Below are positions 12,601 to 57,653 of a stretch of 64,000 nt of DNA, in pieces (within the stretch, counting starts at the first letter, position 1; every line of letters starts with the position of its first letter). This DNA comes from Rhododendron vialii. Lineage: Eukaryota > Streptophyta > Magnoliopsida > Ericales > Ericaceae. The notes below the pieces were generated by a model. The model was not told the DNA's origin. It saw only the letters and a list, made by a program, of their open reading frames with translations, and searched no databases. Position numbers and translations under genes: made by a program. The DNA lies in contig NC_080569.1 of assembly GCF_030253575.1 (NCBI RefSeq), positions 25,556,501-25,620,500 of the forward strand. The letters are read 5' to 3'.

Positions 12601-12615
12601 GCTCGGCGATGACAT
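9605..12615 (-). CDS. F-box/FBD/LRR-like protein (three exons)
   Basis: Exons by GT/AG borders and paralogue comparison: 12615-11605, 10709-10530, 9907-9605, both junctions in phase 0, giving about 497 residues. I start at ATG 12615 (MSSP...), because the upstream in-frame codon is TTG. The F-box spans about residues 37-75 (LPDSLLIHLLSFLPIGDAVKTQVLSKRW). LRR-like text (SLKKLSIG, LEILEL) follows, and exon 3 holds an FBD-like end (YWTSRKK, VKFIGFG, FVQFILENARVLQKM). Such proteins are generally substrate-recognition subunits of SCF E3 ubiquitin ligases: the F-box binds a SKP1/ASK adaptor and the LRR/FBD part is thought to bind the target. The target is unknown. No lesion is visible. The 3' flank to about 9120 is shared with the 33.3-kb copy. 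Confidence 0.88.
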
Positions 12616-12699
12616 GGTTTTCAAACTCTTGTTCTGCTTCAGGATTACCGTTCTGAAAGCTAGGGTTTTGAAATGAGGAAAAACAACGATGGAATTCTA

Positions 12700-20490: not shown

Positions 20491-21393
20491 GCTGGTAAGT
20501 ATATAAACTGTTGCCGGTCCTGCGTGACCATAAGCATATTTTGGCCCTGTGAGGCATCAGTACAATCAAATACTTTGTTTAACACAGGTATTTCGGCCCT
20601 TCGTGGCATAACCTTATGTTTTGCTCGGCTTCCTTCGTTGTTTGCATTTTTAGATGCAAATCAGTTTTATCTAAGTATTTAGTACTTTTGATCCAGTTTA
20701 ATCATATATGTTTTGTTTGCACTGAATCTAAGTTTCATGTACGTAAAAACATTTGTTTCCCAGTGTCTCGTACTGGTTTCAAGTTTAGTACATACAAGTG
20801 TATTCATACTTGTATGCGTCTTCAAATCTTTCAAGTAGTTTCGTACAAATACTTGTAAGGTTCATATAATCATATAGGTGTTCTTTTAAGTTTCACATAC
20901 TTAAGAACAGATATTTATAAGTTTCACGTACTTAACGTTTTTAAGTTTCTCGTACTTGAATAAATTTGGCTAACATATACTCGTTATGTTTTCAAGCCAT
21001 GCCAATAAACGTTTACAAGAGTCTCGTACTTGCATTCGTTAAGTTTCACGTACTCACACAAAAACTTCTAAGTATCACGTACTTAGAACTACTCGTGTGT
21101 TGGATAACGTTTTAAGTTTTCTCGTACTTGAAAAATCCATACAAGTGTTTCATACTTGTTAAGTATCACGTACTCACACAAAAACTTCTAAGTATCACGT
21201 ACTTAGAACATTACACAAGTGTTTCGTACTTGTTAAGTATCACGTACTGAACTGTATACCCTGCTCCCCAATACGAATGAGCGAAACCCTTGCAACTAAA
21301 ATATAGAACAAGGGAATTATATTCGTAATTCCCACACAGTCACGTAGTGCAAATCTAAAACAGAACTGAATGCTTCTTTTAAACAAAGAATTT
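20491..21393. other. Convergent 3' region between antisense gene and pol
   Basis: Both element genes end here, facing each other. The first 240 bases are T-rich with 'ggccctgtgaggcat' and 'ggcccttcgtggcat' as a degenerate repeat. From 20730 the palindrome array begins (separate entry). No ORF is supported. Confidence 0.7.
20730..21248. repeat. Array of AAGT-N7-ACTT micro-palindromes
   Basis: At least 12 copies of a 15-17-bp imperfect palindrome of the type AAGTATCACGTACTT or CAAGTGTTTCGTACTTG. Clear copies start at 20888, 20919, 20943, 21016, 21041, 21070, 21161 and 21190; the longest hairpin (CATACAAGT...ACTTGTATG, 9-bp stem) is 20791-20816. A larger unit of about 120 bp is tandemly repeated (21041-21160, then 21161 on). 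Tandem repeats in 3' untranslated regions are known in Tat/Ogre elements; a short-hairpin array like this is unusual. Confidence 0.85.
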
Positions 21394-24300
21394 TCATAGA
21401 TTATGGACATTCCAAGGCCTCGGAATTGGATTACCATCCAAATCTACCAATCTATAGGCCCCTATGCCTACAATCTCAGTCACTCGATACGGACCTTCCC
21501 AATTTGCCCCTAACTTGCCTTCATTGGCCACCTTGGTGTTGCCGAGCACTTTTCGTAGTACGAGGTCCCCAACACCAAACTCTCGAGGGTGAACATGCTT
21601 ATTGTAGCTTTTCATCAGCTGTTCTTGGTAAGAAGCAAGATGTACTAAGGCTTTTTCTCTCCTCTCCTCGGCAATGTCAAGCTCGATTTGAAGGGCCCAG
21701 TCATTGCCTCCACTTTCAACCAAAACGGTCCTGTTGGTCGGCAGGCCCACCTCTAGAGGTATGACAGCCTCTGTTCCATAGGCCAATGAATAGGGGGTCT
21801 CTCCCGTAGACCTCCTAGGCGTTGTTCGATGAGCCCACAAAACTAATGGTAACTCGTCGGGCCACTTTCCCTTAGCTTTGTCCAGTCTTTTCTTGATTCC
21901 ATCAAGGATAGTTTTATTAGACGCCTCTGCTTGCCCATTACTCTGAGGGTAGGCTGGGGTGGAATAATAATTTCTTATTCCATACTGGGCACAAAAAGCC
22001 TTGAATTTCTTCTGGAATTGGGATCCATTGTCCGTGATCAATGAATAAGGGACCCCAAAGCGAGTGATGATGTTTTTCCACACGAACCTTTCTATCATAG
22101 GCTCAGTGATTTTGGCCAGTGATTCTGCCTCAATCCACTTTGTAAAATAATCAGTTGCTACAAGCAGGAATTTTCGATTCCCAGTTGCTTTGTGCAATGG
22201 ACCCACGATATCCATCCCCCATTGAGCAAAAGGCCAGGGACTTGTCAAAGGCACCAGATCTTCGGCGGGTGTTCGAATCATTGGTGAGAATTTTTGACAC
22301 TTCTCACAAATCTTCACATACACCTTTGCATCTTCTTGCATGTGTGGCCACCAGTAGCCTTGAGTAATTGCTCGGTGGGCAATAGATCTGCCTCCAGCAT
22401 GGCTCCCACATGTTCCCTCGTGGATTTCATGAAGGAACTTTTGTACCATCTCAGGATGTACACAGAGTAAATATGGGCCTGTACAGGATTTCCTGTACAA
22501 CTTACCCTCTGGGGACAGCCAAAACCTAGCAGATTTGACCTTTATTTTGTGGGCCTTCTTTTTGTCAGATGGTAGTGTCTCGTCTCGTAAGAACTCCATG
22601 ATTGGGTCCATCCAACTTGGTCCTTGGTTCACGTCCAAGACCAAGTCTCCATTCCTCCCAATGCTCGGCTTATTCAGATATTCGACTGACACCTTTCTTT
22701 TAAACTCGGTTGGTACAGCTGCAGCCAACCAAGCTAAAGAATCTGCATGAGCATTCTGTCCATAACTAATTTGCTCAATATATACTCTCTCGAAGGTATC
22801 AAGCAAGTCCTTGGCTACCTGCACGTAAGCCAACATCTTTTCATTTCGAGTTTCATACTCGCCGGACAGCTGATTTACCACAAGCTGGGAATCACAATAC
22901 ACCCTAACCCTTTCTGCTTTAAGGGTTTTTGCGCTCCTCAATCCAGCCAGGAGTGCCTCATATTCAGCTACATTATTCGTTGCACTGAATCCAAGCCGAA
23001 CAGATAGTTCAATCAGAACTCCTTGAGGAGGAAACAGGACTACCCCAATTCCAGAACCAGTATTACAGGCTGATCCGTCAACGAATAGCTTCCACTCCGT
23101 GGGGTCCTGTTCGGCTGAAGGTTGATCCTTCATGGATGATGTCTCAGTCACCTGTTCCTTTCTCGTAGGAGGTATGGGAGCCATAGTGGGTGAAAATTCT
23201 GCCACAAAATCAGCCAACACTTGGCTTTTGATTGCTGTGCGTGGCTGATATTCGAGATCGTATTGGCTTAACTCCACGGACCACGTCGAGATCCTTCCCG
23301 AAAAGTCTGCCTTTCGTAGCAACGATTTTAATGGAAACTCAGTATAAACCACAACCTTATGACTTTGGAAGTAGTGTGGCAATTTCCTTGTGGCTGTCCT
23401 AAGTGCCAGGACAAGTTTTTCTAAAGGCAGATATCTCGTTTCCGCATCTAGCAATGTCTTGCTAACATAATAAACAGGGATTTGTTCCATCCCTAAGTCC
23501 CTTAACAGAACTGCACTTACTGCATGCTCGGAAACAGCTAAATACAGAATTAGAGACTCACCTTGCTGTGGTGTTGATAACAGTGGGGGTTCGGCCAGGT
23601 ACTTCTTCAGGTCCGGGAAAGCTTGCTCACATTCTGCTCCCCATTCAAATCCCTCCCTCTTTTTTAGCAATTTGAAAAAAGGGTCTGCACTTATCACTTG
23701 ACCTGCTGATGAATCTGTTAAGTGCTGCTGCCATTCCAGTCAGCCTCTGGACTTCTTTGGTAGTTTTGGGACTCTGTAGTCTTTGTAGGGCATCAATCTG
23801 ATCGGGGTTTGCCTCGATCCCTCTCATGGTTACCAAATGGCCCAGGAACTTTCCTGAACCAACTCCAAACGCACACTTCGAGGCGTTGAGTTTTAGTTTA
23901 TACTTCCTTAAGATTTCGAATACTTCTTTTAAGTCAGTAATATGCCCTCCTTTTTCCCGACTCTTTACCACCATATCATCTATGTAAACTTCCAAAGTTT
24001 TTCCAATGAGTTTTTTGAACATAATGGTTGCAAGCCTTTGGTATGTTGCCCCAGCATTTTTCAGCCCAAACGGCATGACACTGTAGCAGTATAACCCTCG
24101 TGATGTGATGAACGAAGTCTTCTCTTGATCAGGTTCAAACATAGCAATCTGATGATATCCTCGATATGCATCGAGAAAACTCATTCGCTCGTAACCAGAG
24201 GTTGCATCAACCAATTGGTCAATCCTGGGCAAAGGAAAACTATCCTTAGGGCACGCTTTGTTTAGGTCTGTGAAATCCACATAGACACGCCACTTCCCAT

Positions 24301-27016
24301 TCTTCTTCTTTACCACGACAGTGTTGGATAACCACTCCGGGTAATAGACTTCACGTATTGCTTTGGCCTCCAGTAAACGATTGACCTCCTCAATCACTGC
24401 ATCTACATGCTGCACGGCTGCTCTTCGTTTTTTCTGAATGATTGGCTTGTGCTGAGGATCAATGTTTAAATGATGACAGATCACATCTGCATTCACTCCG
24501 GGCATTTCCTCTGGCACCCATGCAAAAACATCAATATATTCCTTTAGAAATTTTATCGATTCAGCCTTTTCGTCTGCTGGTAGTGATTCCCCAATTAAAA
24601 AATATCTTTCAGGATCAGTCTCGTTGATCTGAATCTTCTCCAGGCCTTCAACCACTTTTTCTGCCGGGCTTCTTCCAACATCCTCGATGGTTGGTTGATC
24701 TGGTACTTCTAATGTACGAACATGGTGGACCTTTGGGGCTATTTTGACGATGGAAATCAAACATTGCTGTGCCACCTTCTGGTTGCCTTTAAGGACTTCA
24801 ATCCCATTTGATCCTAGGAATTTCACCATCTGGTGATAAGTTGAGGAGACTGCTCTCATTTTATGCAACCATGTCCTCCCTATAATTGCGTTATAGGAAG
24901 AAGGGACATCGACTACTAAAAAGTCTGTTCTCAACACTACTGATCCAGCCCGAACAGGTAATGTTACCTTTCCAAGGGGCCAGACTGCTCCTGCACCGAA
25001 CCCAATGAGAGGTGTCGTAGACTGTTCTAAGTCTGTTTGGGCCAGCCCCATCTTCTTGAATGCATCATAGTACAATACCTCTGTACAACTCCCCGAGTCC
25101 ACTAGGATCCTCTCGATGTCATATTCTCCAACTCGTAAGGTTACAACCAATGCATCATTGTGGGGTATTTGGACCTCCCCCAAGTCATCGTCAGTGAATG
25201 CTATGCTCTCGTTGCACACATCATTCTCTCGTCCTCTCTTATTTCCCAAACGCATCACATGATGATCGTGTTTGACTTGCCTCTGCAACAACCTCACCTC
25301 ATTCCTCGTATAAGGTGTAGCCAACCCATGTATCATATGGATCACACCTTTAGGGTTTTGTTCGTAACCCAGCTCCATAGCTTTCCCTTTTTCTTTTGGA
25401 TCCTCTTGGATAAATTCCTTGAGATAGCCCCGAGAGACTAAATCATCAATGTGCCTCTTGTACATCTCACAATCCTCGGTCATATGGCCCCAATCTTTGT
25501 GGTAACTGCAGTGCTGATTCGTAGCACGTTTTGCATCCTTGTCTCCGCCTAGACTCGGGGGCCACTTGAAATACGGCTAATTCTTTATTCGATAAAGAAT
25601 CCTGTATATTGGTTCCTTCCAAACCGTAGTGATAGAAAAGAAAGCTTTTGGGTCAGGAGCTTGCTTATCTTTATACGGCTCTTTCTTAGCATGCCCGTAC
25701 TCCCTTCTGTCTTTGTAAGTCTTGGGCTCTGGCTTATCCACTTTTTTGGCAGGTGCCTTCGGCTGTTCGGCAACCGTCCTGCCATCCTCACGGAGTATGT
25801 CATCTTCCATTCTGGCGTGTTGCTCTATCCGTTCCATCAATTTAGCCAAGGTGGCTACCGGATGTTTATTTAATGAACGGCGCAGCTCTCCCCGAACAGG
25901 CAAACAGTTTTGAACGTAGCAATTGCATACTCTTCACTGCAACTTTCAATCTCGTTGAAAATTTCCCAGTACTTCTTTGCATAATCCCTGATCTGCTCGT
26001 TCTCCTCCTGCTTCATGGTGGAAAGACTCTCAAAGGTCTTTGGGGCCTTTCTGCTTGTCAAGAACCGAGCAGTGAATTCCTCGGCCAACTGCCTCCACCC
26101 ACGTATGGATCGTGGGGCCAGTTTATGAAACCAGAATAAGGCCACTTTGCCAAGACTGGAGGGAAACATCTTACACAAGATGGAATCATCCCCTTCATGC
26201 ATAAACATAGCCTGTTGATAATGCTGTATGTGAGCCACAGGATCCGTATTTGTCTCGTAAAGTACGAATGCACCGTGCTTCACTCTGCTCGGCAACCTAG
26301 CCTCTTGTAGCCTTTTTGTAAATAGGGAGGCCGCAATATTACTTAATGCCTTACGTGCTGCTTCACGTGCAGTCACTGTCCCATCCTCAAACTCTTTGGA
26401 TTTGTGAGCCGCGACTTTGGCCCAATCAGCATCAGGTCTCTCATACCTGTCTCGATGATGTTTCCTTCTTCCCTCTTCTTCGGGGGTGGAACTTCTGTCT
26501 CTGCTTCTCCCTTTTCGTGAAGAAGCCCTTCTCTCTTCTGTTCGGCTTTTACTTCTTCTTCCCCTTTTTTGTGGAGAAGCCTCATAACGCCCCATGACAG
26601 GACTTCTGCTTCTTCTTCTTCGTGAATGAGTCTGCCTATGGACTACCAACGTCCTTCCATCTCTTTGGGAATGCCTATGAGAGAGTCCAGAGTCTTCTGG
26701 GTGCTCTCGTACCCGCTGCAACTCCTGTATCTCATACTCTCGTTTTTTAATTAAACGAGCATACTCCTCGATTTCCCTTCTCTTCTTATCAAGGACATCG
26801 GCATCATCGTGTATGTTCTTTGAACGGGTAACTGACTCCTCTTCGATGAGACCTACTCCTTCTCGTGGAGCTAGTAGCAGTTTTGTCTCCTTTTTCTTTG
26901 GAGCTACCTCTGTCATGTCTACCAGTGGGCTTTCTCGGAGCGCCTGGTGGGGATTTATCTCTTCCCCCACCCAACTGGTCCTTCGGACTAAATGGAGTAT
27001 CTGGATCTTCTTCCAT
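21394..27016 (-). pseudogene. gag-pol of element 1, frameshifted and with a stop
   Basis: Start ATG 27016. Frame breaks: a C5 run (26964-26968), about 25905-25915, and about 23670-23675. A TAG stop lies at 25579-25577. Domains in order: Gag core (FPSSLG...WFHKL, ESLSTMKQ), a CX2HX4HX4C knuckle (25510-25469), protease with DSG (near 25099), RT with YIDD (near 23980), RT-linked RNase H, a second RNase H (VDGS, AEYEAL, CDSQ, HAD), integrase with HX6H and CX2C, and DDE residues near 22211, 22035 and 21929. The C-terminus ends at PWNVHNL with a TGA where element 2 continues by four residues. The frame is readable between lesions, so decay is recent. No lesion is repaired in this description. Confidence 0.92.
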
Positions 27017-27030
27017 CGTACTAGGGAACT

Positions 27031-27057
27031 GGTTCGATTCCCACAGACGGCGCCAAT
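27031..27057 (-). other. Primer binding site, element 1
   Basis: Directly inside the 5' LTR the minus strand reads TGGCGCCGTCTGTGGG and continues into GAATCGAACC. Read on plus this looks like the 3' quarter of a tRNA: GGTTCGATTCCC (T-arm), a 7-nt acceptor strand AGACGGC, a discriminator G, then CCA. The tRNA whose 5' acceptor is GCCGTCT would be the primer; from memory this fits tRNA-Lys(UUU), but that needs a tRNA database check. Confidence 0.8.
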
Positions 27058-27901
27058 TGTAGGGGGATGAAAACAATTGATGCTTTCTGATCAACTGGAT
27101 TGCAACGGCTTATTCGTGCCTCTTCACCGAAACCCTAATTCGTCGTCAGAACCCTAATCTGCAAAATAGACAAGGGGTGAGCGCACCTTTGCCTCTCGTG
27201 GCAAAGGCCCTCCGATGCCTTTATTAGTATCACGTACTAGCAATAAAACCCTAATTATCAGTAGGAAAGCAGTGAGAATGCAATGTATTGTGTACCTTTT
27301 GCCTCTAGGTTTACCTCATATTTATAGATTTTCGTATGCTTGTTACCCAAGCATTCCTGTTGCCATAGGATTCCTAACTCGTATAGGAAACCCAAGATAT
27401 CAAGGAGTCTCGTTTCCTTTATCAGTTTATGGAAAAGAGTCATTTTAGGATTCTTTTCCATTAAGAGCCGAACATCCCATACTCGTTGGGTATCTTTCTC
27501 AGATCCTATATTCTTGGGATTTTATTCCTTTATGGGACATGACTATTCTGGAATCTTCCAGAGTATTCCCTCTGCTCCTATTCTCGATTGGAGCTCCTTC
27601 TTTGTTCGGCTGTCTCATGGCCGAACAGACTACCTGGACCAAGGACTTCACATGTTACTTGGTCCAAACGTAATCAGAATGTCTCTTATCTGCCGATCAG
27701 ATAGTTTACACCAGTGACTTGTCATGTCATTGGCCTTTTATTTAGCCGAACAGATTGCATGGACCAGGGACTTCACATGTCATTGTTCCATATCGCTGTT
27801 CTTCATACTGCCCGGAGATAAGTCCAGTCGTATTCACCACGTGCTCCCAAACATCACGTGTTCGGCATCTAAATGTATTTGCTCGGGAATACCTCCCTAC
27901 A
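27058..27901 (-). repeat. Element 1, 5' LTR
   Basis: 844 bp, the upstream LTR in the transcribed direction. Minus-strand TATA box CTATAAATATGAGG at 27327-27314. It is 99.3 percent identical to its partner by my count (six transitions, no indel). The flanking GATCA shows this is the original outer boundary. Confidence 0.95.
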
Positions 27902-45930: not shown

Positions 45931-46600
45931 TGTGTGGCCCCTCTCTTCCGACTCGAGTCCTTCCTTCGTTGATTTAGTGGTCTCCTCGCCTTCTCCACGC
46001 AGCCTGCACGATGAGCGCACGACTAAAGGCCAGGCCGGGGGTTGTCCCGGCAAGGCCCTCCGGCGTGAGGATGAGTAATGTGTAGAGAGAGTAGGCAGAA
46101 GATTATCGGAGAGTATGTAGTAGCATGTACCTCTCTAGGGTTTTCACTGCTAGGTATTTATAGAATCTCTTCACTTGCTCTCTAAGCACTAACACGTGCC
46201 TTGCACAGGTCAGGCAGTGTCATCATGACGTCACCAAATAGATCTGGTAACCGTTTTTAGGGCTGAGCTGGCATACCCATGTGCGCTCATGATCATTGCT
46301 TGTTATAACCGTCTTTACACGTGGAAAAATATGCAAAACCAGCGGCTAGCCGTGGTCGGCAGTGGCCTCGCCCTGCGGGTGGCCGAACACGCCTTCGTCG
46401 GTCGGGCGTCAGATCGACAGGAGAGGACAGTCACAGGTGACTTGCCGTGGAAGGTGGCCGTCAACGAGACGATCCGCCAACGAGTCCGTGGTCATGGAAA
46501 GGGCTGTCGCAGAACAGGGACGGGAGCCGTGCTGAAGATGCGTGCTCGGCAAGGCACGGGCTCGGTTGCTAAGTAGCGAACTCATGTTCGGCCTGCTACA
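45931..46600 (-). repeat. Element 2, 3' LTR
   Basis: 670 bp, TGTGTGGCCCC ... CGGCCTGCTACA on plus. Minus-strand TATA (CTATAAATACC) at 46163-46153. Immediately inside (46601-46615) the minus strand reads TTGAGGGGCTAT, the polypurine tract. Confidence 0.95.
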
Positions 46601-47587
46601 ATAGCCCCTCAATCTCAGCCGTCGCCAAGTGCACGGTTGGGATTGATATTAACTTTGGCCGAGCATGGAACTCGGTTACTGGACAGAATTTAGCCGAGCC
46701 TAGAACCCTTTTCAACAAAACAGCCAACGACGGGGACCAATGGGGATTCGCCAGGTGTCGATTTCTTGTTGGGTACGGCTGACAGGGAGACGGTGGGCAC
46801 GCGTGGAGCTCTGCCAACCCGTCACATCAGGCCACGCGTCAGATGTTTATTGGCTGCAGGTTCGGCGGTACAGCTTCATGGGCGGGAAACTCGAATCTCA
46901 AACCCCCACGTCTTTATAAAGGGCTGGAGTTAGAGAGAGAAGCCACCGTTGCTTTCTCTCTCTAGACCTCCATTGCCAGAGCTCCGTTCCTTGCCCGTTC
47001 GTGTTCCAGCCTTGATTCTCAGCAGTTTTTCATCAAATCTTGTTGAAACTTACAGGTATGCGTTCGATCTTTATCCCTCTTGTAGTTTGTGTCATTTTTC
47101 CAAGCTTTCCTTTCTGCTTTCTTGGGTTTTTGGGAGTTTTTTGTTCTGAGTGAACAGCAAGAGGTCTGGAGATGGACGACTGTTCATCTTCGTCTTCGAT
47201 CTGTTCTTCCGAGCACGAGTTTTGCAACGACGCTCGTGCTCGGCCATGTTGGGATTTTCCGAGCCCAATTTTTGAACGCGGGCAGGCCGAGCCCCATTTG
47301 TACGCGGGCAGGCCGAGCCCCATTTGGAGTCCTAGTATTTCCCGAACTTGAATCTTGAAGAGACGAATCGGGTGAGTCAATAGGGTAGCCGAGCATAGAG
47401 ATCCCTTGCCTTCTAGCCGACAACGAGGTCTCTCATTGTTTTCTTGTCTTTGTTAGGTCTGGCTCACCCACCCATTGTCATCTCTTCCGACTCTGAAAGC
47501 TCAGGGGAAGATTCTGGGGACTTGTTTTTCCGCGAGTGGTTGGGAAGACACAGACGCCGACACCAAATATCATCCATCGCCTCAAAT
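46601..47587 (+). promoter_or_regulatory. Promoter and 5' leader of element 2 antisense gene
   Basis: A clear plus-strand TATA box, TTTATAAA at 46913-46920, is followed by a CT-rich patch (TTTCTCTCTCTAGA, about 46951-46964) matching the one in element 1. Leader introns are plausible: donors at 47056 (CAG/GTATGCG) or 47372 (GG/GTGAGT) and an acceptor ending at 47456 (TTTGTTAG). A short frame from ATG 47172 is a possible upstream ORF that stops at 47351. The GCCGAG word is frequent. Confidence 0.65.
46913..46920 (+). promoter_or_regulatory. TATA box for antisense transcription
   Basis: TTTATAAA in a GC-richer setting (CACGTC before, GGGCTGG after), about 35-45 bp upstream of a CT-rich patch typical of plant transcription starts. 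It points away from the LTR, into the antisense gene, so that gene need not rely on the LTR promoter. Confidence 0.65.
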
Positions 47588-50017
47588 ATGTCATCCGACT
47601 CATGTGACTCGAATGCCGAACGCGTCTTTGAATACGACGCCGACGAGTTTGTAACCGATCCTGAAATATCTTTCACACCATCTACTCATTCTGATGCCGA
47701 GCCTCAACTGGGACCGGAGGCCGAGTCTAGATTCGTCCCACAGGCCGACGCCCCAACCCCTATCCTTTCAGGGTACAGTGAGTCCCACTCCGAGGGTAGA
47801 GGTCTAGACGATCTTTATGAGAGGGGCCAAGTTTGCCCCTATGCCCATTTCTTTACCGGAAGTGCCAGGGAGTACCAAGACTTTTGCCGAGAGTACAACA
47901 TCCCAAATGACGTAATACTCAACCAAGTAGCAAGCAACAGAATCACGGATACGAGAGGGGACCATCCCGAGCATATCACAGTCCCGTTGATGGCGATATG
48001 CGAGGCTGGTTTGAGGTTCCCTCTTCATCCTTTCTTGAGGGAACTTCTTGCTCGGTTCAGCATCGTTCCACATTATTTTGCGATCAATAGCTACCGAATA
48101 GTAATGTTGGTGATTAAGCTGAAGGAGCTTCACAACCTTGAGTTTACCGTAGCCGACCTTTTCCATACTTATATTATGTCTAGGCACGGCCAAACCGAGC
48201 GTCGATACTTGTCCACACGTGGCAAGAAACAACCATTGGTAGATGGTTTGCCCGACACTGACAAATGGGCAAACTTTTATGTCGAAGTGAGGGGCAACTT
48301 TGAGTTCGGCGACCAGACCGTACGTAAGTATACAGTGCCGAAGACAAAAGACTTTCGAGGTAACTATGTTTCTTCTGCTCAGCCAACGTTAACTTTTCCT
48401 TTGATGCATGTGATTTTCCTAACAGTTGATTGCTTTTGCAGATCACCGAGCCATAACAAAGACTCAGCAATCTTTGTCTGTTGAGGCGCACGTTGATATC
48501 CTCCTATCTCAAGCTTGCAGGGATGCGCCGACGCTTCTTGGATACGAGCCGTCATACAAGGGCAAGCTAAGGAGGAGAGGAAGAGAGGCGGTGCCCAGCA
48601 CAGAAGGTCAGGGCCGAGGAAAGAAGCCGAGGCAGACAGGAGGTAGTAAGCAGCCGAGGGTGAAATTGCCGACGTTCAGGAAACCGGCAGAGTTTTGGTT
48701 TGGAGAAGAACAAGCCGAACATCCAGGAGTTAACGTTCCATTAAGATCTCTCGTGCCCGATCTTGCCAGTGACATGGGCCGTCGAAACGTTGTCCGCGTC
48801 AACATACGAGATGGCAAAGCGGTTCGACAGGAATCTGGATTTGCCGAGCCTGCGGAGAAGAGGCAAAAAGTCACCCATGACTTCTTCCCGACCAAGCCAC
48901 CGAGCTCAAATCCGAGCGAGAGGGAGAGGACAGAGTCGTCAGCGGCTGGTGGCTCAAAGACAGCCGAACGGCCTTTGGGTTCGGCCAGCACAGTCGTTGC
49001 TCAGGAGTTCTCTCCGTCATACGCCTTGGCCGAGGGCAGAGTCGTGACTGTGGAGGATTCTGTGAAAGCCGAACCTGGTTTAGCCACTGCCATTCTTCAA
49101 GGTCTGGCATTGCCGAAGGATATGCAAAAAATCCCTCAGGGTCTCCAGCCGAGTTTGGTTAATGCTGGTGCTTATCTTGTTCAGGTATCATCCGACCTTG
49201 GTCATTTTATTTCACTTTCCATCCTTGAGTATTTATATGCCGACGCTTTTTCGTTTATCAGGCTGGACAGGCTTTGTTGCGCTCATCAAAGGACGCCGAA
49301 CTTGTGGTCGCCGAGCGTGCTCGATTTCATGATGACTTGAAGGTCGAGCGAGAAAAGGTGAGGAGCTACAAGGGAAGCCTGAAGACTGTGAAAGCACAGA
49401 TGGCCGAGCTCGAGAAGGAGAGAGATGAGATGGAGGAGAGAATGAAAAAGGCCGAAGGTGAAGTGGCCAAAGTTCTGAGGAGGGAGAAGAGGAAGATGAA
49501 GGAGGTGGATGGGGCGGCGTACCAAGCTGGCTTTGACCGAGCCGGTGCCGAGTATATGCGGGAAGCTCGGTCCATGGTCAACGACGCCATCCGCATGAGG
49601 ATCCCCATCGCCTACGGAACAGGGTACAAGGATGGGGTGAGTGCAGCTTGTGGAGTCATGCAGCTGGAGGCTGACATGAATTTGACCAAGTCTATTCCAG
49701 CCCCAGTCACTCCTGAGCTTGTATTGCCGTACACCGAAGACGAGTGTGCACCCCTCCCTCCCGAGCAGTTTCCTGACAGTGATGATGAGGTCGAGGAGGT
49801 TTCTGGTGATGGTGGTGAGGTGGGGGCCGCCACTAAAGCTGCTGTTGGTGACAAAATTGTTGAAGATGCTGGAATGGTCGTTGGGGATGCCGAACACGAA
49901 CCATTACATGTTGATAGGGATGTCCATTCTGAAGGTGGTGCTGGCGGTAGTGGTGCGGCGGTCGGAGTGGACGCAGCTGCGACCGGAGCTATTGCCGAGG
50001 ATACTGCCCAAGGTTGA
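47588..50017 (+). CDS. Antisense extra ORF of element 2 (gypsy-type putative transposase-like), three exons
   Basis: Exons 47588-48359, 48442-49184, 49262-50017, with phases 1 and 0, giving about 756 residues and no stop. The ATG at 47588 is the first in frame; the frame is open back to about 47444 without ATG, so an upstream exon is possible. Acidic N-terminus, then LRFPLHPFLRELL (the core shared with element 1), LPDTDKW, a basic stretch, LGYEPSYKGKLRRR, a Lys/Arg-rich and Ser-rich middle, GLALPKDMQK, a long coiled coil (ELVVAERARFHDD to RREKRKMKEV) and an acidic, Gly-rich tail. It resembles the Pfam 'putative gypsy type transposon' family (from memory). Basic patches could serve nuclear import or nucleic-acid binding; function is unknown. 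A second donor at 48324 (AC/GTAAGT) would remove 12 codons in frame. Confidence 0.8.
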
Positions 50018-51031
50018 GGTTGATGAAGTCGGAGCCGAGGCTGAATTTGCTTTTACTTGTCAATTTGCTGTTTTCCTTCAATTTGTACTTTGCTGGACTG
50101 GACGGATCCGTGTTTGGATTTTACCGAACCAGGTGTATTGAAAGCTGGAACTTTTCACCGAGCTTGAATACTTGATCTTTTGAATGAATTGACTTCTTTT
50201 TGCAATGCTTTCTTGAATCTGTCTTGCTTTATTTGAGATTTGTTTGAGATCATGGTTTGTTGGCCGAGCTTGGATCGATGCATTATTTTTGTTAGATGCC
50301 GAGCCTTTGCCACATTAGATTTGTGTTAATGTGAAAGTTTGTCGGGCCTTGGTTTATGGAGTAGTAGTTACCCTGTAGCCCCTACTTTGGTTTGGGTTCG
50401 GCCTTATGGCAAGAATTCTTGTCTGAGTGCTCAAGTTACAAACTGTAGGTGTTGCCGAGCTTGAACCAAAGTAAAAAGGTATAAAGAGAGCTTGCCGAGC
50501 GCGCGTGTTGGTCTCGGCTGGTTGCTAATATAGTTAGTGAGATTTTTCGCCAAAGTTGTGGACATAACCTTAGTTTGGGGCTCGGTGGATTTGTCTTGTC
50601 TTAGTCTGGATGTAAAGTATTGAATGTTTGTGGGTGGTTTGCTCACCAAGACGTGAGTGTAACCGGGCTGTAGCCGACCATAGCGTCTTGCTAAGCCAAT
50701 TCCGAGCCCAAATTCCAGCCATATTGTGTGTATCTGGGCTCGGTGGACCTGATGTCCGTTTTGCTTCTTTGGGCAGTAATAGTGGCCGAAGCAGAGGCAT
50801 ATGAGCCGTTTGTGGGTGTGACCGAGGTCAACGTTTGTGGTCGGCCAAATTAGCCAAGATAGTATATATTAACAAAATAACTCTGAATTGCAAAATGAAA
50901 GCTTGTCAGATAAAATTTCTTTGATTCTTCAATCATGAAGTACATGTTGAAATTGTAAAGACATGGCCGAAGCCGAAAGAGAAATAGGATAGGTAGTGTC
51001 CGAACATGTGGCACACTTGTTGGGGTTTTGG
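50018..51031. other. Convergent 3' region of element 2
   Basis: Between the stop of the antisense gene and the stop of gag-pol. About 1 kb, no ORF supported. It is full of GCCGAG/CTCGGC words. 'gctcggtggatttgtcttg' near 50580 and 'gctcggtggacctgatgtc' near 50737 look like a degenerate duplication. Unlike element 1 it has no AAGT-N7-ACTT array. Confidence 0.7.
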
Positions 51032-54000
51032 TTACATGTATGCCTTCTTGAGGTTCTGTGCATTCCATGGGTTACTGAGAACTTTCCCATTCATGTCCTC
51101 AAGCACGTAGGCACCTTCACCAGCGATCTTGACAATACGGAAGGGACCCTCCCAGTTGGGTTTGAACTTCTGCTTCTTGCTAGCTTGCACCACCTTTCGC
51201 CAAACCATGTCGTCTGGTTTGAAGGTTTTGGTTCGAACACTTCTGTTGTAGCCTCTTGCGACTTGTTGTTGGTATTCGGCGAGCTTTAGCTGAGCGTCGT
51301 CGCGTTTTTCTTCTGCCAAAATCAATTCTTGTTCCACTGCATCTTCATTGGCCTTTGGATCAAAGTTCTCAGTCCTTAGAGTTGGGAACTTTGACTCCAG
51401 TGGGATTACTGCCTCCATGCCGAATGCCATTGAAAAGGGGGTTTGGCCAGTTGAGCGCCGGGGTGTAGAACGATAAGCCCAAAGGACACGTGGTAATTCG
51501 TCAGCCCATTTTCCTCTCTTGGAGTTCAGTCTTCGCTTAATCCCGGCGCAGACAGTCTTGTTTGTGGCCTCGGCCTGTCCGTTCCCTTGGGGGTATGCTG
51601 GTGTGGAGTTGAAGAAGCGTATCCCAAATTCCTCACAGAGGCTGGTCAGGTCCTTACCGACAAATTGGCTGCCATTGTCTGATACAATGGCGTACGGAAC
51701 TCCGAATCTGGTTACAATGTTTCGCCAGACAAATCTGCGAACGTCAGCTTCTGTGATTGTCACAAGGGGTTCGGCTTCTACCCATTTGGAGAAGTAGTCC
51801 GTTGCTGTGATCAAGAACTTGAATCCTCCTGGAGCTGTTGGCAGTTTTCCGACAATGTCGAGCCCCCATTGTGCGAAGGGCCAAGGGCTGGTAATAGGGG
51901 AGAGATTCTGGGCGGGTTGCTTTGGTATAGGTGAAAACAGCTGGCAAGGTCGGCATTTGCGGACAACTTCTTCGCAGTCTTTCTTCATGTTCTTCCAGAA
52001 GTAACCTTGGCTCATGGCACGTTGACAGAGGGAGCGGCCGCCTGAGTGACATCCGCAGCTGCCTGAATGAAGTTCTGTCAGAATGTCGGGCACTTGGGTT
52101 GGGTGGACAACGAGAAGATACGGTCCGGAGATGGATTTCCTGTATAACTGGCCGCTTTCAGAAAGCCAGTAGTAAGCGGCCTTGTTTCTCACACGGTAAG
52201 CCTCCTTCTTGTCTGTTGGGAGGGTGTCGTGCTTTAGAAACGCAACGATCTCATCCATCCAGCTGGGACCGAGCTCAACGTTGAGTACCTCTGGAGTGGG
52301 CTCGAAAGACGGATGGCCAATGCTGCTGAAGTTGATGGTTCTGAATTCTGAGGCAGTGGATGCCGAAGCGAGACCAGCAAGCGCGTCCGCGTGGGCGTTG
52401 TGCTCGCGGTTGATCTGCTCAATTTTGAAATTGGGGAAGTTGGTGGTTAGTTTGGCTACGGTTGCCTGGTATTTTGACATCCGCGGATCCCGAGCCTCAT
52501 AGTCACCAAGTACTTGGTTAACTATGAGTTGGGAGTCATAGAAAACGACAAGGTTGGAGACATCCAAGGCAATGGCAGAGCGTAGGCCAGCTAGGAGCGC
52601 TTCATATTCGGCTTCGTTATTGGTGGCGGGGAAGTCAATGCTGATGGCACTTTCGTGTAGTGTTCCACAAGGGGAGACTAGTACGACCCCAGCCCCTGCT
52701 CCGTTGCTGTTTGACGCTCCGTCGACATGCAGACGCCATATGTCGCCTTGGAAAAGGTGCCAAGGAGCTGGTGACAATTGATGCTCGGCGATGCTTTGTG
52801 TTGGGATTGGTGTATTGAGGAGTTCAGTGTCTGCTGGAGTAAGCTCAGCAATGAAATCTGCAAGAACCTGTCCTTTGATTGCCGTTCGTGGTTCAAAACG
52901 GATATCAAAGTTTGCTAACTCAACTGCCCACTTGGAAACCCTGTTAGACAGATCCGCTTTTCGAAAGAGAGCTTTGAGGGGGTGTTCTGTTAGGACGACG
53001 ATTGAGTGTGATTGGAAGTAGGGCAGGAGCTTCCTGGCCGCTGAGACGAGAGCAAGGGCTAGCTTTTCAAGCGGTAGGTAACGAGTTTGAGCTGGAAGGA
53101 GCGTCTTGCTTGTGAAATAGATGGGCTTGTCATCGGCGCCTTCCCGCCGTATAAGTGCAGAGCTGGTTGCGTGGGCGGACACGGCGAGATAGAGATAAAG
53201 GGTTTCGAACTCTTTGGGTTTTACCAACAGCGGGGCCGATTTCAAGTAGTCTTTAAGTTCGGCAAAGGCTGAGTCACAGTCCGGGGTCCATTCAAAGCTG
53301 CGTCGGCTTTTGCCCTTCAGGGCGTGGAAGAATGCGTGGCATTTGTCTGAGGATTTGCTGATGAATCGGTTGAGAGCCGCTGCCATCCCAGTGAGCCTTT
53401 GAACTTCCTTGATCGTTCTGGGTGGGCACAAATTTTGAACAGCTGTGATTTGGTTGGGATCGGCTTCGATACCTCTTCGAGTGACCAGGTGTCCGAGAAA
53501 TTTCCCAGCGCTTACCCCGAACGCACACTTCTCAGGATTGAGCCGTAGCTTGTGTAGCTTGAGGATGTCAAAAACTTCGGCCAAGTTTCGCAGGTGGTCG
53601 GATTCCTTCTTGCTTTTGATGACTAGGTCGTCAATGTAAGCCTCCACAGTGTGGCCGATTTGTTCTTCCAACATCTTGAATATTGCTCTGTTGAATGTTG
53701 CCCCGGAATTCTTGAGTCCAAAGGGCATGACGCGGTAGCAAAAGATTCCATACGGCGTGATGAAAGCAGTTTTCTCCATATCGTCGGGGTCCATGGCAAT
53801 TTGGTGGTAGCCACGGTAGGCGTCCAAAAAGCTAAGCCGAGCATGTCCTGCCGTTGCATCCACAAGTTGATCAATTTTTGGCAGTGGGAACCAATCCTTT
53901 GGACAAGCGTCGTTGAGATTGGTATAATCCACACAAACTCGCCATTTGCCGTTTTTCTTTTTGACAACCACAGTGTTGGACAGCCATGTCGGGTATTGTA

Positions 54001-56878
54001 CTTCTTGGATGGCGTTGGCCTCCAGCAGACGTTTGACTTCTTCGACGACGGCGTCGGCGTGTTCGGCTGCAGATCGCCGTGCCTTCTGGATGACAGGTTT
54101 AGCGTCCTTCTTGATGTTGAGGGAGTGACTGATGAATTTCGGGTCGACCCCCGGCATTTCGTTGGGGGTCCAAGCGAAAACTTCGATATTTTCTTTGAGG
54201 TATTGAAACATTTCTTCGCGGTCGGCCTCGCTGATGGAAGAGCTGATGAGGAAGAATCGGGAGCCATCCTCGTTGATCGGCATCTGGACGAGGTCTTCCT
54301 CTGCTTTGTCTTCTGCTTTTTGGCCAACATCGTCGGTTACTGCCATGTCGGGGATTTCAACCCATTGTACTTGTTTGGCTTTGGCGGAGTTGTGGACGGT
54401 AGAGACATAGCACTTTTTGGACGCCACTTGGTCGCCTCGCAAATCTTCCTGTCGTCCTGTGGCGCCGATGAAGCGGACGACCTGGTGGTAGGTAGAAGCA
54501 ATGGCTTGCATTCCGTGGAGCCAGGTTCGGCCAAGGATGGCGTTGTATGGGCTTGGTGCGTTGACGACGATGAATTCGACGGTCAGGGTTTTTGAGCCGA
54601 CGACGACTGGGAGGAAGATTCGGCCCAGCGGCCAGACGGGTGCACCGTTGAAGCCGATGAGGGGTACGTCGGTAGGTTGTAGGGCAGACTCAGGTAGGTC
54701 CAGCTTTTTGAAAAGGTCGTAGTACATGACCTCTGCTGAACTTCCTTGATCGACAAGAACGCGTTTGACGTCATGCACTCCAATTTGGACGGTTACGACG
54801 AGAGCGTCGGAGTGTGGTGTTTGCACATGTTCAAGATCGCGCTCGGTAAAAGTAATCGTCCATTTGGGCAACTCCTCTGTTCGTGGACGTTTGGATCCAG
54901 GTCCTACTGCGAGTACCTGCTTGGAAGTTGATGCGCGGCTAAGGTCGGCCTGAAGAGTTGATTCAAATTCCTTTGATACTGGACCGTGGATAACGTGTAT
55001 TAGTGGGCGCTGTTCGTTGGGGTTGGGATTTGTCTGCCGGGTGGGCGTTTTTGAGCGGTCAATGTATTGATCGAGATGGCCTTGAGTCACCAAACGTTCC
55101 AACAGTGCCTTGTAGGGGGCGCATGCCGTCGTGTAGTGGCCGAGCTCATTGTGATACGAGCACTTCTTTCTTGGGTTCTGATCAGCTTGGCCATTGTCTG
55201 TGCCGAGCTTGCCCGTCGGCCACTCGAACCATGGTTGCCTCATTATCTCTTTCAGAAAAGACCAAATGGGTTCCTTGAAGTGGGTGGTTTCGGCCACGTA
55301 GTCATGCTCTTTTGGCTGGCGTTTTTTCCCTTCTTTGATGTTGTGCACCTGCTTCTTGGGTTGGGGGTGCTGGATGATTGCTGGTGCCGGCGGTTGGGCT
55401 GTGGCCGAGGTGAAGGATGCTGTCAAGCTTGGGATGCCCTGGGCCGCACGGTCCGCATAAAACTCTTCAAGAGCACAGAATCTCTCCACGACGCGCATTA
55501 ATTCTCCCATGCCGTGTGGTGGGCGGATGGCGAGTTCGTCTAGGATCTTGCTGCCGGTTTCGAGACCGTTTTTGAAAGTACGCGCAGCCCAATATTCATC
55601 GATTCCTGGAATTTCGTTGAACAGCTGCCAATAACGCTCGGCGTATTGTCTTAGTGTTTCATTTGGGAGCTTCCTCATCTGGGATAAGGATTCAAGCTCC
55701 TTGGCTGTCCTGTTACTTGTGATAAAGCGGGTGTTGAAGGCGCGTTCGAGGTCAGCCAGGTTCCGTATGGATCCAGCGGGCAATTTATTGAACCACTGGA
55801 GTCCAAGAAAGCCAAGGCTGGATGGGAATGCTTTGCATTTGATTTCATCCTTCGTAGTGCACAGCTCGATGGTTTGGCGAAAGTGAATGAGGTGAGTGTA
55901 AGCTTCGCAGCTGCTTGGGTCAAACTTCGTGAATTTTGGTAGGTGGAAATTGGGTTCGGCGATGGTGTGGATGATTTGGGAGGTGAAGGGTGAGATACCA
56001 AGGTCCTTTAGTTGCCGTTCAAATCCAGGACGCGGTGGTTTGCCTAGCTCGTCCGTGCGTGGCCTCTTTGGGTGCTTCTCTCTTTCTGATGTTTTTTCGT
56101 GTACTCGGCTGCGAAGCTTGTCCCGCAGGTCCGTTGTTTCCCTTCGGGGGTGGTCGACGGACTTCTCTTTGTTGCAATAGGTTCTGTTCCCATTCTCCGC
56201 CCCTTCGATCCGTAAGCCTTTGCCATTACGCCGAACATCTTTCTCATTATCCAAGTTTTCTGGTGGTATCCCCCCGAGGCGTTCAGAGACGTGGCGCCTG
56301 GTTTCGACGGAGTCTCGGCTTCGGCGTGATGCCGTTGTGCGAGAGAACTCCGCGCGACCAGTCGAGTACGTGCTCGTGAATGATTCGGTGTCCCTTGTGC
56401 GGGTTCGCTCGTGGTGGGATCTCGAGTGGTGTGTACCAGATGTTGTAGGTCGTTTGTAGAGGATGATTTCTCTGGCGTCCCCTTTTTCTGGCGTAAACCC
56501 AAGGCGGTCTTTGACGGAGACGCGGTGGCCCGCCTCGTTTGGGTGGTCTCGGGGCGGCGGAGGAGGAGGAGGAGGAGAATTTCTTTGCTTCCGTCGTCCG
56601 CCTCCGGTAGATCTGGAGGCGGCTGGGGTTGCGTCCTGCATATGTTGCTCCATCTGGGCCACTTCCGCTCTTAGCGCTGCAAGTTCGTTGTCCCTTTCGT
56701 CGTCTCTTCGTTGCAGAAGGCGGATGTAGGCCGTTGTTACGTCGTCTGCGGCCGGAGAAAGCCCAGAATCTGGGGGGAGTGAGATGGACATGTGCCTTTC
56801 TGAAAACGGTGGGAGGATTGCATTTCCACTGGTGTCTTTGGCCCCCGAGACGGAAACGTTTTGTGGATCTCCGCCCAT
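51032..56878 (-). CDS. Gag-Pol polyprotein of element 2, intact
   Basis: About 1948 residues from ATG 56878 (MGGDPQ). The frame is open further upstream through the primer site into the LTR, but only from a non-ATG codon. Coiled coil about 44-84; Gag core about 340-470; knuckle CX2HX4HX4C at 573-586, with His where retroviral knuckles have the second Cys; protease with DQG (D710); RT about 950-1150 with YIDD at 1081-1084; RT-linked RNase H about 1215-1345; second RNase H about 1381-1500 with D1386, E1424, D1448, D1498; integrase zinc site H1604, H1611, C1642, C1645; DDE at D1674, D1734, E1770 (DD35E). It ends NPWNAQNLKKAYM with no chromodomain. Gag packages RNA, protease cleaves the chain, RT/RNase H copy RNA to DNA, and integrase inserts it in the nucleus. 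Gag and Pol in one frame means their ratio must be set after translation. Confidence 0.96.
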   Translation of the reverse strand: MGGDPQNVSVSGAKDTSGNAILPPFSERHMSISLPPDSGLSPAADDVTTAYIRLLQRRDDERDNELAALRAEVAQMEQHMQDATPAASRSTGGGRRKQRNSPPPPPPPPRDHPNEAGHRVSVKDRLGFTPEKGDAREIILYKRPTTSGTHHSRSHHERTRTRDTESFTSTYSTGRAEFSRTTASRRSRDSVETRRHVSERLGGIPPENLDNEKDVRRNGKGLRIEGAENGNRTYCNKEKSVDHPRRETTDLRDKLRSRVHEKTSEREKHPKRPRTDELGKPPRPGFERQLKDLGISPFTSQIIHTIAEPNFHLPKFTKFDPSSCEAYTHLIHFRQTIELCTTKDEIKCKAFPSSLGFLGLQWFNKLPAGSIRNLADLERAFNTRFITSNRTAKELESLSQMRKLPNETLRQYAERYWQLFNEIPGIDEYWAARTFKNGLETGSKILDELAIRPPHGMGELMRVVERFCALEEFYADRAAQGIPSLTASFTSATAQPPAPAIIQHPQPKKQVHNIKEGKKRQPKEHDYVAETTHFKEPIWSFLKEIMRQPWFEWPTGKLGTDNGQADQNPRKKCSYHNELGHYTTACAPYKALLERLVTQGHLDQYIDRSKTPTRQTNPNPNEQRPLIHVIHGPVSKEFESTLQADLSRASTSKQVLAVGPGSKRPRTEELPKWTITFTERDLEHVQTPHSDALVVTVQIGVHDVKRVLVDQGSSAEVMYYDLFKKLDLPESALQPTDVPLIGFNGAPVWPLGRIFLPVVVGSKTLTVEFIVVNAPSPYNAILGRTWLHGMQAIASTYHQVVRFIGATGRQEDLRGDQVASKKCYVSTVHNSAKAKQVQWVEIPDMAVTDDVGQKAEDKAEEDLVQMPINEDGSRFFLISSSISEADREEMFQYLKENIEVFAWTPNEMPGVDPKFISHSLNIKKDAKPVIQKARRSAAEHADAVVEEVKRLLEANAIQEVQYPTWLSNTVVVKKKNGKWRVCVDYTNLNDACPKDWFPLPKIDQLVDATAGHARLSFLDAYRGYHQIAMDPDDMEKTAFITPYGIFCYRVMPFGLKNSGATFNRAIFKMLEEQIGHTVEAYIDDLVIKSKKESDHLRNLAEVFDILKLHKLRLNPEKCAFGVSAGKFLGHLVTRRGIEADPNQITAVQNLCPPRTIKEVQRLTGMAAALNRFISKSSDKCHAFFHALKGKSRRSFEWTPDCDSAFAELKDYLKSAPLLVKPKEFETLYLYLAVSAHATSSALIRREGADDKPIYFTSKTLLPAQTRYLPLEKLALALVSAARKLLPYFQSHSIVVLTEHPLKALFRKADLSNRVSKWAVELANFDIRFEPRTAIKGQVLADFIAELTPADTELLNTPIPTQSIAEHQLSPAPWHLFQGDIWRLHVDGASNSNGAGAGVVLVSPCGTLHESAISIDFPATNNEAEYEALLAGLRSAIALDVSNLVVFYDSQLIVNQVLGDYEARDPRMSKYQATVAKLTTNFPNFKIEQINREHNAHADALAGLASASTASEFRTINFSSIGHPSFEPTPEVLNVELGPSWMDEIVAFLKHDTLPTDKKEAYRVRNKAAYYWLSESGQLYRKSISGPYLLVVHPTQVPDILTELHSGSCGCHSGGRSLCQRAMSQGYFWKNMKKDCEEVVRKCRPCQLFSPIPKQPAQNLSPITSPWPFAQWGLDIVGKLPTAPGGFKFLITATDYFSKWVEAEPLVTITEADVRRFVWRNIVTRFGVPYAIVSDNGSQFVGKDLTSLCEEFGIRFFNSTPAYPQGNGQAEATNKTVCAGIKRRLNSKRGKWADELPRVLWAYRSTPRRSTGQTPFSMAFGMEAVIPLESKFPTLRTENFDPKANEDAVEQELILAEEKRDDAQLKLAEYQQQVARGYNRSVRTKTFKPDDMVWRKVVQASKKQKFKPNWEGPFRIVKIAGEGAYVLEDMNGKVLSNPWNAQNLKKAYM

Positions 56879-56962
56879 CGCCGTTTGAGTTTTTGACCGT
56901 CTTCTTAAGAGGAATGTGATTTGGAAAAGAGTTTGAGCTGTTTGGATCAGAGGCTGAGAAGG

Positions 56963-56983
56963 GTTCACGTCGGGTTCACCAAT
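56963..56983 (-). other. Primer binding site, element 2
   Basis: Directly inside the 5' LTR the minus strand reads TGGTGAACCCGACGTGAACC. TGG pairs with the tRNA CCA end. I could not assign the tRNA with confidence. It is a different primer from element 1 (TGGCGCCGTC). Confidence 0.75.
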
Positions 56984-57653
56984 TGTGTGGCCCCTCTCTT
57001 CCGACTCGAGTCCTTCCTTCGTTGATTTAGTGGTCTCCTCGCCTTCTCCACGCAGCCTGCACGATGAGCGCACGACTAAAGGCCAGGCCGGGGGTTGTCC
57101 CGGCAAGGCCCTCCGGCGTGAGGATGAGTAATGTGTAGAGAGAGTAGGCAGAAGATTATCGGAGAGTATGTAGTAGCATGTACCTCTCTAGGGTTTTCAC
57201 TGCTAGGTATTTATAGAATCTCTTCACTTGCTCTCCAAGCACTAACACGTGCCTTGCACAGGTCAGGCAGTGTCATCATGACGTCACCAAATAGATCTGG
57301 TAACCGTTTTTAGGGCTGAGCTGGCATACCCATGTGCGCTCATGATCATTGCTTGTTATAACCGTCTTTACACGTGGAAAAATATGCAAAACCAGTGGCT
57401 AGCCGTGGTCGGCAGTGGCCTCGCCCTGCGGGTGGCCGAACACGCCTTCGTCGGTCGGGCGTCAGATCGACAGGAGAGGACAGTCACAAGTGACTTGCCG
57501 TGGAAGGTGGCCGTCAACGAGACGATCCGCCAACGAGTCCGTGGTCATGGAAAGGGCTGTCGCAGAACAGGGACGGGAGCCGTGCTGAAGATGCGTGCTC
57601 GGCAAGGCACGGGCTCGGTTGCTAAGTAGCGAACTCATGTTCGGCCTGCTACA
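56984..57653 (-). repeat. Element 2, 5' LTR
   Basis: 670 bp; minus-strand TATA CTATAAATACC at 57216-57206. Three transitions separate it from the 3' LTR (near 46173, 46355 and 46437 in the partner), about 99.6 percent identity. The open frames inside, identical in both LTRs, are not genes. Confidence 0.95.

Follow-up and report, generated by a model that had tools for sequence, protein, structure and literature searches.

A probable intron-bearing antisense accessory gene in two Tat-type gypsy retrotransposons of Rhododendron vialii

Background

Two LTR retrotransposons in a 64,000-nucleotide stretch of the Rhododendron vialii genome (NC_080569.1, positions 25,556,501 to 25,620,500; hereafter the window) carry, on the strand opposite to gag-pol, open frames that resemble the exons of one gene. 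The question is whether these frames belong to a spliced gene that is maintained by selection, and what such a gene would do for a retroelement. An initial annotation of the window regarded it as a candidate accessory system of Tat elements. We consider it likely that this is a Tat/Retand-type antisense accessory gene, here intron-bearing and, in element 2, with its own TATA box.

As an interpretation the accessory system stands, but the antisense gene itself is not novel. Antisense genes between pol and the 3' LTR have been published for Grande, RIRE2, Retand and others, as summarised in the available parts of PMC7264820, and in a recent survey an antisense TRP28 ORF is present in 97% of the Retand clusters analysed (63 clusters, two exceptions), according to its main text (Vicient 2025, PMC11963269). 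The gene is thus of a known kind, and the new part consists of the conserved intron plan and its predicted splicing, the position of the TATA box, the selection and a one-strand motif. In the main text of PMC11963269 the word 'intron' is absent and 'splic' occurs only in a reference; the parts of that paper available to us contain no dN/dS and no one-strand motif. The 2020 review (PMC7264820) does not use the word intron, and in its available sections calls for a search for antisense and spliced transcripts. No description of the intron plan was found in the available text of the literature searched, including PMC6317226, PMC9289625 and PMC11728184, a scope that leaves older key papers aside. 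The texts searched that combine Retand, intron, antisense and splicing each name Retand once, in a reference or a table, and their accessible portions describe no antisense introns.

Results

Two young Tat-type elements

Elements 1 (16795-27901) and 2 (45931-57653), both on the minus strand, are young Tat-type gypsy LTR retrotransposons. In element 1 the 3' LTR (16795..17638) and 5' LTR (27058..27901) are 99.29% identical (6 mismatches in 844) and the target site duplication (TSD) is GATCA; in element 2 the 3' LTR (45931..46600) and 5' LTR (56984..57653) are 99.55% identical (3 mismatches in 670) and the TSD is GTTAG. The gag-pol region, likewise on the minus strand, comprises three open frames in element 1 (21394..27090) and, in element 2 (51032..57187), a single one that spans 2051 codons from one stop to the next. 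The latter extends at its 5' end into the 5' LTR and contains gag, RT, RNase H, a second RNase H and integrase. Its domains RT_RNaseH_2, RVT_3, H2C2 and rve (residues 1300-1398, 1488-1605, 1696-1752 and 1770-1866) recur in the same order in an ORF of element 1 (33-131, 221-336, 428-485 and 503-598), and the RT-to-integrase proteins of the two elements share 51-53% identity.

In the available text of PMC6317226 the angiosperm Tat layout (Ogre/Retand) is marked by a second RNase H (aRH) that follows the first and precedes integrase, an order that both elements have. Ogre elements have gag-pro and RT-RH-INT as two ORFs split by an intron, which is not the case in element 2 with its single frame. 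For the Retand lineage the text available of PMC11963269 gives a long pol-3'LTR region with an antisense ORF, a 5-bp TSD and LTRs of 315-1194 bp; here the pol-3'LTR regions measure about 4.4 and 3.8 kb, the TSDs 5 bp and the LTRs 670 and 844 bp. Outside both elements, the minus strand has open frames at 11551-12696 (381 aa) and 35860-36945 (361 aa).

The antisense gene and its protein

In both elements the antisense gene lies on the plus strand between pol and the 3' LTR, with its 3' end facing that of the minus-strand gag-pol, which is the convergent arrangement proposed in the initial annotation. In element 2 it is composed of exon 1 (47588..48359), encoding a TRP28-related N-terminal part; intron 1 (48360..48441; 82 nt, phase 1, GT-AG); exon 2 (48442..49184), which runs from LGYxPSYxG to LPxDMQK and has basic clusters noted by eye; intron 2 (49185..49261; 77 nt, phase 0, GT-AG); and exon 3 (49262..50017, stop codon included), encoding a coiled coil and an acidic tail. 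The joined exons give 756 codons with no internal stop. The gene of element 1 consists of exon 1 (18215..18773), intron 1 (18774..18873; 100 nt, phase 1, GT-AG), exon 2 (18874..19766), intron 2 (19767..19869; 103 nt, phase 0, GT-AG) and exon 3 (19870..20490) with a coiled coil; since exon 1 carries one in-frame TAG, this copy is broken.

The two genes had been described as collinear, with matching intron places and phases, and this is what we find: three exons in each, separated by a phase 1 and then a phase 0 intron. The claimed placement of the introns was also borne out. Intron 1 closes a stretch of 22 residues beginning at GNFE in element 2 and of 24 residues from the matching GAFE in element 1, and comes before LGYEPSYKG and LGYDPSYRG, the two versions of LGYxPSYxG; intron 2 lies 18 and 19 residues past LPxDMQK in elements 2 and 1, respectively, ahead of the coiled coil. 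At the DNA level the similarity between the two genes, already reported as low, is nil for practical purposes, the best blastn piece being 22 bp (E 0.016). Judged by their sequences the two proteins are related beyond chance: the exon 1 proteins share 29% identity over 128 residues, and Smith-Waterman z values against 200 shuffles reach 29.7 for exon 1, 11.0 for exon 2 and 4.4 for exon 3. The real pair of exon 3 (score 65) was outscored by one or more shuffles (79), so the kinship of this exon leans on position and coiled-coil character over identity. When the joined proteins of elements 1 and 2 are aligned without constraint, the intron columns are 16 and 7 apart because gaps fall in linkers; in the same kind of alignment between element 2 and locus L008 they coincide.

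The exon 1 frame of element 2 matches Pfam PF04195 (TRP28) with 19.3 bits (E 0.0014), below the curated cut-off of 26.2, and the exon 2 and 3 frames of element 1 have no match to this family. L008, which passes the cut-off (32.2 bits), shares 57% identity with exon 1 of element 2 over residues 7-257. The element 2 protein is homologous to a protein that passes; because its own score stays below the cut-off, we use the name 'TRP28-related'. A predicted structure of exon 1 (mean pLDDT 63) found no match among solved or viral folds, and DNA binding therefore gains no support from the fold.

The intron plan in other copies

The genome (532.6 Mb, 13 contigs) was searched for further copies, and an alignment was made of 29 close relatives for each gene (the E2 and E1 groups). 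The introns are kept in nearly all of them. In the E2 group the donors of introns 1 and 2 are present in 29/29 and 29/29 copies and the acceptors in 29/29 and 28/29; in the E1 group the corresponding figures are 27/29 and 28/29 for donors and 27/29 and 27/29 for acceptors. Among 12 diverged copies, hand-picked from match tables and 53-79% identical in exon 2, intron 1 is present in all 12 and intron 2 in all but one; the intron sequences themselves differ. L008, a TRP28 family member of 36% identity in exon 2, retains both introns, and the decayed copy L003 has lost the borders of intron 1 (GA..AA). Five of the eight TRP28 loci (L001, L002, L005, L006 and L007) gave no match to either antisense gene, and L004, which was only partly covered, was left out of judgement. 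The expectation that intron borders would be kept in other copies, for which the initial annotation proposed a check, is thereby confirmed. Counts over copies are not independent, as the copies share descent.

A survey by coordinates, based on genome searches that returned the best-scoring candidates only, points the same way. It used 118/148 exon-1, 107/150 exon-2 and 81/150 exon-3 rows among the matches listed, chosen for having an apparent partner, and joined 107 of 118 across intron 1 and 81 of 107 across intron 2. The intron-1 gaps of the 107 exon pairs measure 72-114 nt and fall into the three frames as 33/39/35; the intron-2 gaps of the 81 pairs measure 71-109 nt, with uneven frames (11/27/43) and with 35 of the 81 at lengths of 71, 76 or 77. 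Neither intron is lost in any pair. Loci L069-L072 were left out of all analyses. An intact gene (ATG present, none of the four splice dinucleotides missing, and the frame open over 85% or more of the length) is found in 9/29 copies of the E2 group and 10/29 of the E1 group, and most examined copies are therefore dead.

The closest named proteins in a database search (eight relatives) are those of Rhododendron molle, whose gene models are predictions; the Vaccinium proteins P0007-P0011 are more distant relatives. R. molle P0001-P0004 pass the place of intron 1 with no added residues; two of them, P0001 and P0003, continue across that of intron 2, again free of intron residues. In P0001 the core of exon 1 and part of exon 2 are missing, and P0002 and P0004 stop before or near intron 2. 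P0005, an unspliced call on a 3.3-kb contig, has 37 extra residues at intron 1 and is out of frame after LVQ at intron 2.

Selection on the protein

Shared introns had been taken to imply selection. Selection is indeed indicated by dN/dS and by the indel patterns; the inference from shared introns alone fails, because these amount to common descent. Pairwise Nei-Gojobori estimates over all exons were pooled in bins of rising dS. For the E2 group together with 10 diverged copies (40 sequences, window copy included), dN/dS is 0.31, 0.22, 0.15, 0.12 and 0.10 (31, 16, 150, 212 and 200 pairs; 171 further pairs were saturated or too short), and for the E1 group (32 sequences) it is 0.50, 0.21, 0.16, 0.16 and 0.14 (22, 91, 197, 177 and 9 pairs). 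Pooled values thus range from 0.10 to 0.16 at dS > 0.2 in both groups, in line with the expectation that they would lie well below 1. Near-identical copies have the highest pooled values (0.31 in E2, 0.50 in E1), with some single low-dS pairs above 1. This drop with divergence is the pattern predicted from selection in active lineages and decay after insertion. Exon 2 of the E1 group taken alone gives 0.54, 0.25, 0.15, 0.21 and 0.18, with no steady fall.

Indels tell a similar story, in counts that inherited events enter repeatedly. In the E2 group the frame-breaking indels number 7/19, 0/22 and 24/63 in exons 1, 2 and 3 (5 of the 7 in exon 1 come from the disrupted L017), against 31/32 and 46/52 in introns 1 and 2; in the E1 group, indels that are not multiples of three make up 5/9, 2/9 and 55/75 in the exons and 72/72 and 41/42 in the introns. 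Exon 3 is weaker, its 3' ends apparently being partly decayed or replaced. Differences at codon positions 1/2/3 amount to 8.8/6.8/25.1, 8.5/6.2/23.6 and 9.8/10.2/31.9% in E2 exons 1, 2 and 3, and to 5.3/2.4/19.8, 3.6/2.8/11.5 and 14.2/11.0/32.0% in those of E1. Introns 1 and 2, read in an arbitrary frame, give 24.9/21.5/13.1 and 19.1/19.1/24.0% in E2 and 14.0/14.0/14.0 and 13.1/12.1/8.4% in E1. In E2 exons 1 and 2 the rate of difference at third positions is 3.7-3.8 times that at second positions, and the introns have no third-position excess that large. The low dN/dS (0.10-0.16) and the exon 2 indel pattern suggest that a translated product is needed. Together these data support a three-exon coding gene whose protein and splice sites are under purifying selection, and the conserved plan and protein point to a working accessory protein.

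Promoter and leader

A putative TATA box for the element 2 gene lies at 46915..46920 on the plus strand, 315 bp inward from the 3' LTR (45931-46600). A genome search with a 26-base pattern and at most 3 mismatches gave 48 matches (the reversed control gave 0). All 48 preserve TATAAAG, and 46 of them lie 612-699 bp upstream of an exon-1 match on the same strand, as measured to 47 exon-1 matches chosen for closeness to a pattern match; the remaining 102 of the 148 listed exon-1 rows have no pattern match at this stringency. One unpaired TATA match (C7:21559148) has an exon-3 match 646 bp further on (together C7:21559148-21560510), so that exons 1 and 2 have seemingly been lost in that copy, and one match lies about 11 kb from L017. 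Element 1 has only weak AT-rich matches (17658 and 17707). The proposed separate promotion of the antisense gene is thus supported for element 2, where a TATA box of the right orientation recurs at an almost constant distance, and not for element 1.

The presumed antisense 5' leader of element 2 would span 46945..47587 on the plus strand. Further conserved splice-like borders make leader introns likely, the candidates being one with its donor at about 47055 (CAG/GTATGC) and acceptor at about 47161, and a second with its donor at about 47372 (GG/GTGAGT) and acceptor at 47456, both on the plus strand. The leader analysis covered 27 of 29 copies, with L017 and L030 left out; in these two the leader or exon 1 is not alignable, as after an insertion or rearrangement. 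The frame upstream of the ATG is open and partly conserved, and the ATG at 47588 is therefore a candidate start only. The stretch 47457-47587, upstream of this ATG and behind a good acceptor, is open and well kept, and the R. molle models P0001-P0004 include a peptide related to it (LAH..ISSDSES-like). At 47259-47325 the leader holds 2.5 copies of a 26-bp unit bearing CCGAGC.

One-strand motifs

The plus strand of element 2 repeats CCGAGC/GCCGA from 46659 to 50702, through the leader, exons and introns of the antisense gene and into the spacer between the gene and pol (50018..51034), where the CCGAGC motifs are again mostly on the plus strand. In the region 46601-51034 there are 24 plus-strand CCGAGC against 1.3 expected under a first-order Markov model (5 on the minus strand) and 13 plus-strand GCCGAGC against 0.3 (1 on the minus strand). 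Under a second-order model the expectation rises to 4.4 CCGAGC, which reduces the excess but does not remove it. In gag-pol of the same element the CCGAGC counts are 3 (2.1 expected) and 5 (1.4 expected); GCCGA is in excess there too (25 vs 7.1 on the coding strand, 12 vs 5.8 on the other). The antisense exons contain 27 GCCGA against 11.3 in synonymous shuffles, and none of 500 shuffles is as high. All ten diverged relatives examined share the mostly one-stranded repetition of CCGAGC: CCGAG occurs 193 times forward and 26 times reverse, and in the introns CCGA is found 22 times forward and 2 times reverse, with 2.4 expected.

Methylated CCG sites should decay fast, which makes their retention notable. 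The seven CCGA sites of the leader have a mean retention of 93% over 27 copies, where 4-mers overall reach 63% and other NCGN 52%. In the spacer, analysed without L019 and L031, eight sites are retained at 75% against 55% and 35% in the comparisons, a level that 93 of 5000 random sets reach; two of the eight sites fare poorly (44 and 26%), and five reverse sites average 67%.

The CCGAGC-type motif is absent from the element 1 gene. The spacer of that element holds an array (20769..21248, plus strand) of 11 CGTACT, all forward, against 1.5 expected under the second-order model, spaced by 18-158 bp and not reported by Tandem Repeats Finder. Among 30 loci of the E1 group (window copy included), 28 have 9-13 CGTACT, and L059 and L067 have 1 each; a single reverse site occurs, at one locus. 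In the latter two loci, which are of element 1 type, exon 3 aligns poorly and the tail carries the single CGTACT, perhaps reflecting a recombinant 3' region. The more distant TRP28 loci have no clear motif of the CCGAGC/CGTACT kind. The one-strandedness speaks against a plain protein-binding site and leaves room for an RNA-level role or for spread by direct repeats.

Discussion

How the gene may be expressed and kept

We infer that the antisense transcript is spliced in vivo. RNA polymerase II would initiate shortly after the TATA box, next to the 3' LTR, and read toward pol, both introns would be spliced from this transcript, and their removal would join the TRP28-related domain, the basic middle part and the coiled coil as one protein. 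The introns would outlast retrotransposition because the replicating genomic RNA is the complement, in which they read CT..AC and could not be spliced, and because the antisense mRNA presumably fails as a template for new copies. With less certainty, the protein may enter the nucleus, oligomerise via its coiled coil, bind the DNA (or RNA) of its own element at the family-specific motif of the antisense region and keep the element transcribed, as a regulator or anti-silencer.

Alternative explanations

It might be argued that there are two or three separate unspliced antisense ORFs, with coincidental GT-AG borders: the ORF listing of element 2 has three overlapping open frames over the gene, the gene call P0005 reads through the introns, and the 2025 survey (PMC11963269) counts antisense ORFs in a main text without the word 'intron'. 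We regard this as very improbable, given that the splice dinucleotides are nearly always kept at a fixed place and phase, that intron 1 lengths are even over the three frames, that intron indels, unlike those of exon 2, are nearly all frame-breaking, and that other R. molle models join the exons at these places. Still harder to believe is a relic that appears conserved only through the youth of its copies. Stops in most examined copies, pooled dN/dS of 0.31-0.50 in near-identical pairs and single pairs above 1 would fit it, yet all-exon dN/dS falls with divergence, and many pairs combine saturated synonymous sites with a conserved protein.

Two further readings concern the mode of action. The protein may be irrelevant and the antisense transcript may act as RNA, through dsRNA with the genomic RNA or transcription interference; the convergent layout, the proposal in the available part of the 2020 review (PMC7264820) that antisense action may proceed through double-stranded RNA, and the mostly one-stranded CCGAGC, as expected of an RNA-level signal, are all consistent with this. 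The apparent need for a translated product makes it improbable as the sole explanation, and both roles could coexist. A role of the protein in replication, for instance in nuclear import of the pre-integration complex or in particle assembly, deserves more weight and is nevertheless unlikely. It agrees with the basic clusters in exon 2 and with the nuclear localisation of the Grande gene23 product, as cited in the accessible text of PMC7264820, but leaves unexplained the family-specific motif in the same region, and the admittedly weak exon 1 model has no fold match to capsid or any other protein.

The intron-bearing antisense accessory gene thus remains our preferred reading. A more speculative reading, which we consider unlikely, would make it the equivalent of VANC in LTR retrotransposons: a factor that acts on its own element in a sequence-specific way, to prevent silencing or to activate, with CCGAGC (element 2 superfamily) or CGTACT (element 1 family) as its targets. 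The one-strand motif suggests such a self-directed role without proving it.

Implications

In the accessible text of the literature searched, the antisense frames of this widespread lineage of plant retrotransposons appear as bare ORFs. If they are instead a spliced, separately promoted and selected three-exon gene, single-ORF versions of the protein are incomplete, function tests need the spliced form, and the intron plan becomes a clean marker of the gene's age and spread. The motif is a directly testable candidate target for the protein. If the VANC-like reading is true, protein and target motif would diverge together, and a retroelement could, by placing a normally spliced, host-like gene on the strand opposite its replicating RNA, bring that gene through reverse transcription with the introns intact. 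This would also account for the near-universal retention of the gene in the surveyed Retand clusters and for the long pol-3'LTR region, which is often rich in family-specific repeats.

Comparison with known systems

As far as the available text of PMC11963269 goes, Retand antisense TRP28 ORFs share the place between pol and the 3' LTR, the strand and a TRP28-related domain with the genes described here, the LTR and internal-region sizes are alike, and some published antisense ORFs have Smc-type domains; they are published there as plain ORFs, whereas the present gene has three exons. Gene23 of maize Grande, as presented in the accessible part of PMC7264820, similarly occupies the antisense strand between pol and the 3' LTR as an accessory gene; it has a promoter of its own, and its product is nuclear. 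Ogre elements possess a spliceosomal intron within the Tat clade, located between gag-pro and RT; in the portion of PMC6317226 available, that intron lies in the sense RNA and only part of the transcripts are spliced, unlike the introns of an antisense gene seen here.

VANC of the VANDAL transposons, as characterised in the available text of PMC5735166 and PMC10398659, is likewise an intron-bearing protein gene encoded by the element, and short family-specific motifs are gathered in the element's own non-coding parts, introns included (PMC5735166, in the same scope). CCGAGC in element 2 and CGTACT in element 1 are likewise short, family-specific and clustered in non-coding parts of their own elements, for which VANC offers the nearest parallel, and they could be candidate targets of this type. 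VANDALs are DNA transposons for which, in these sources, binding and demethylation are demonstrated, whereas the likeness drawn here is by analogy, and the motif of element 2, unlike that of VANDALs as described there, also occurs within exons and is strongly one-stranded.
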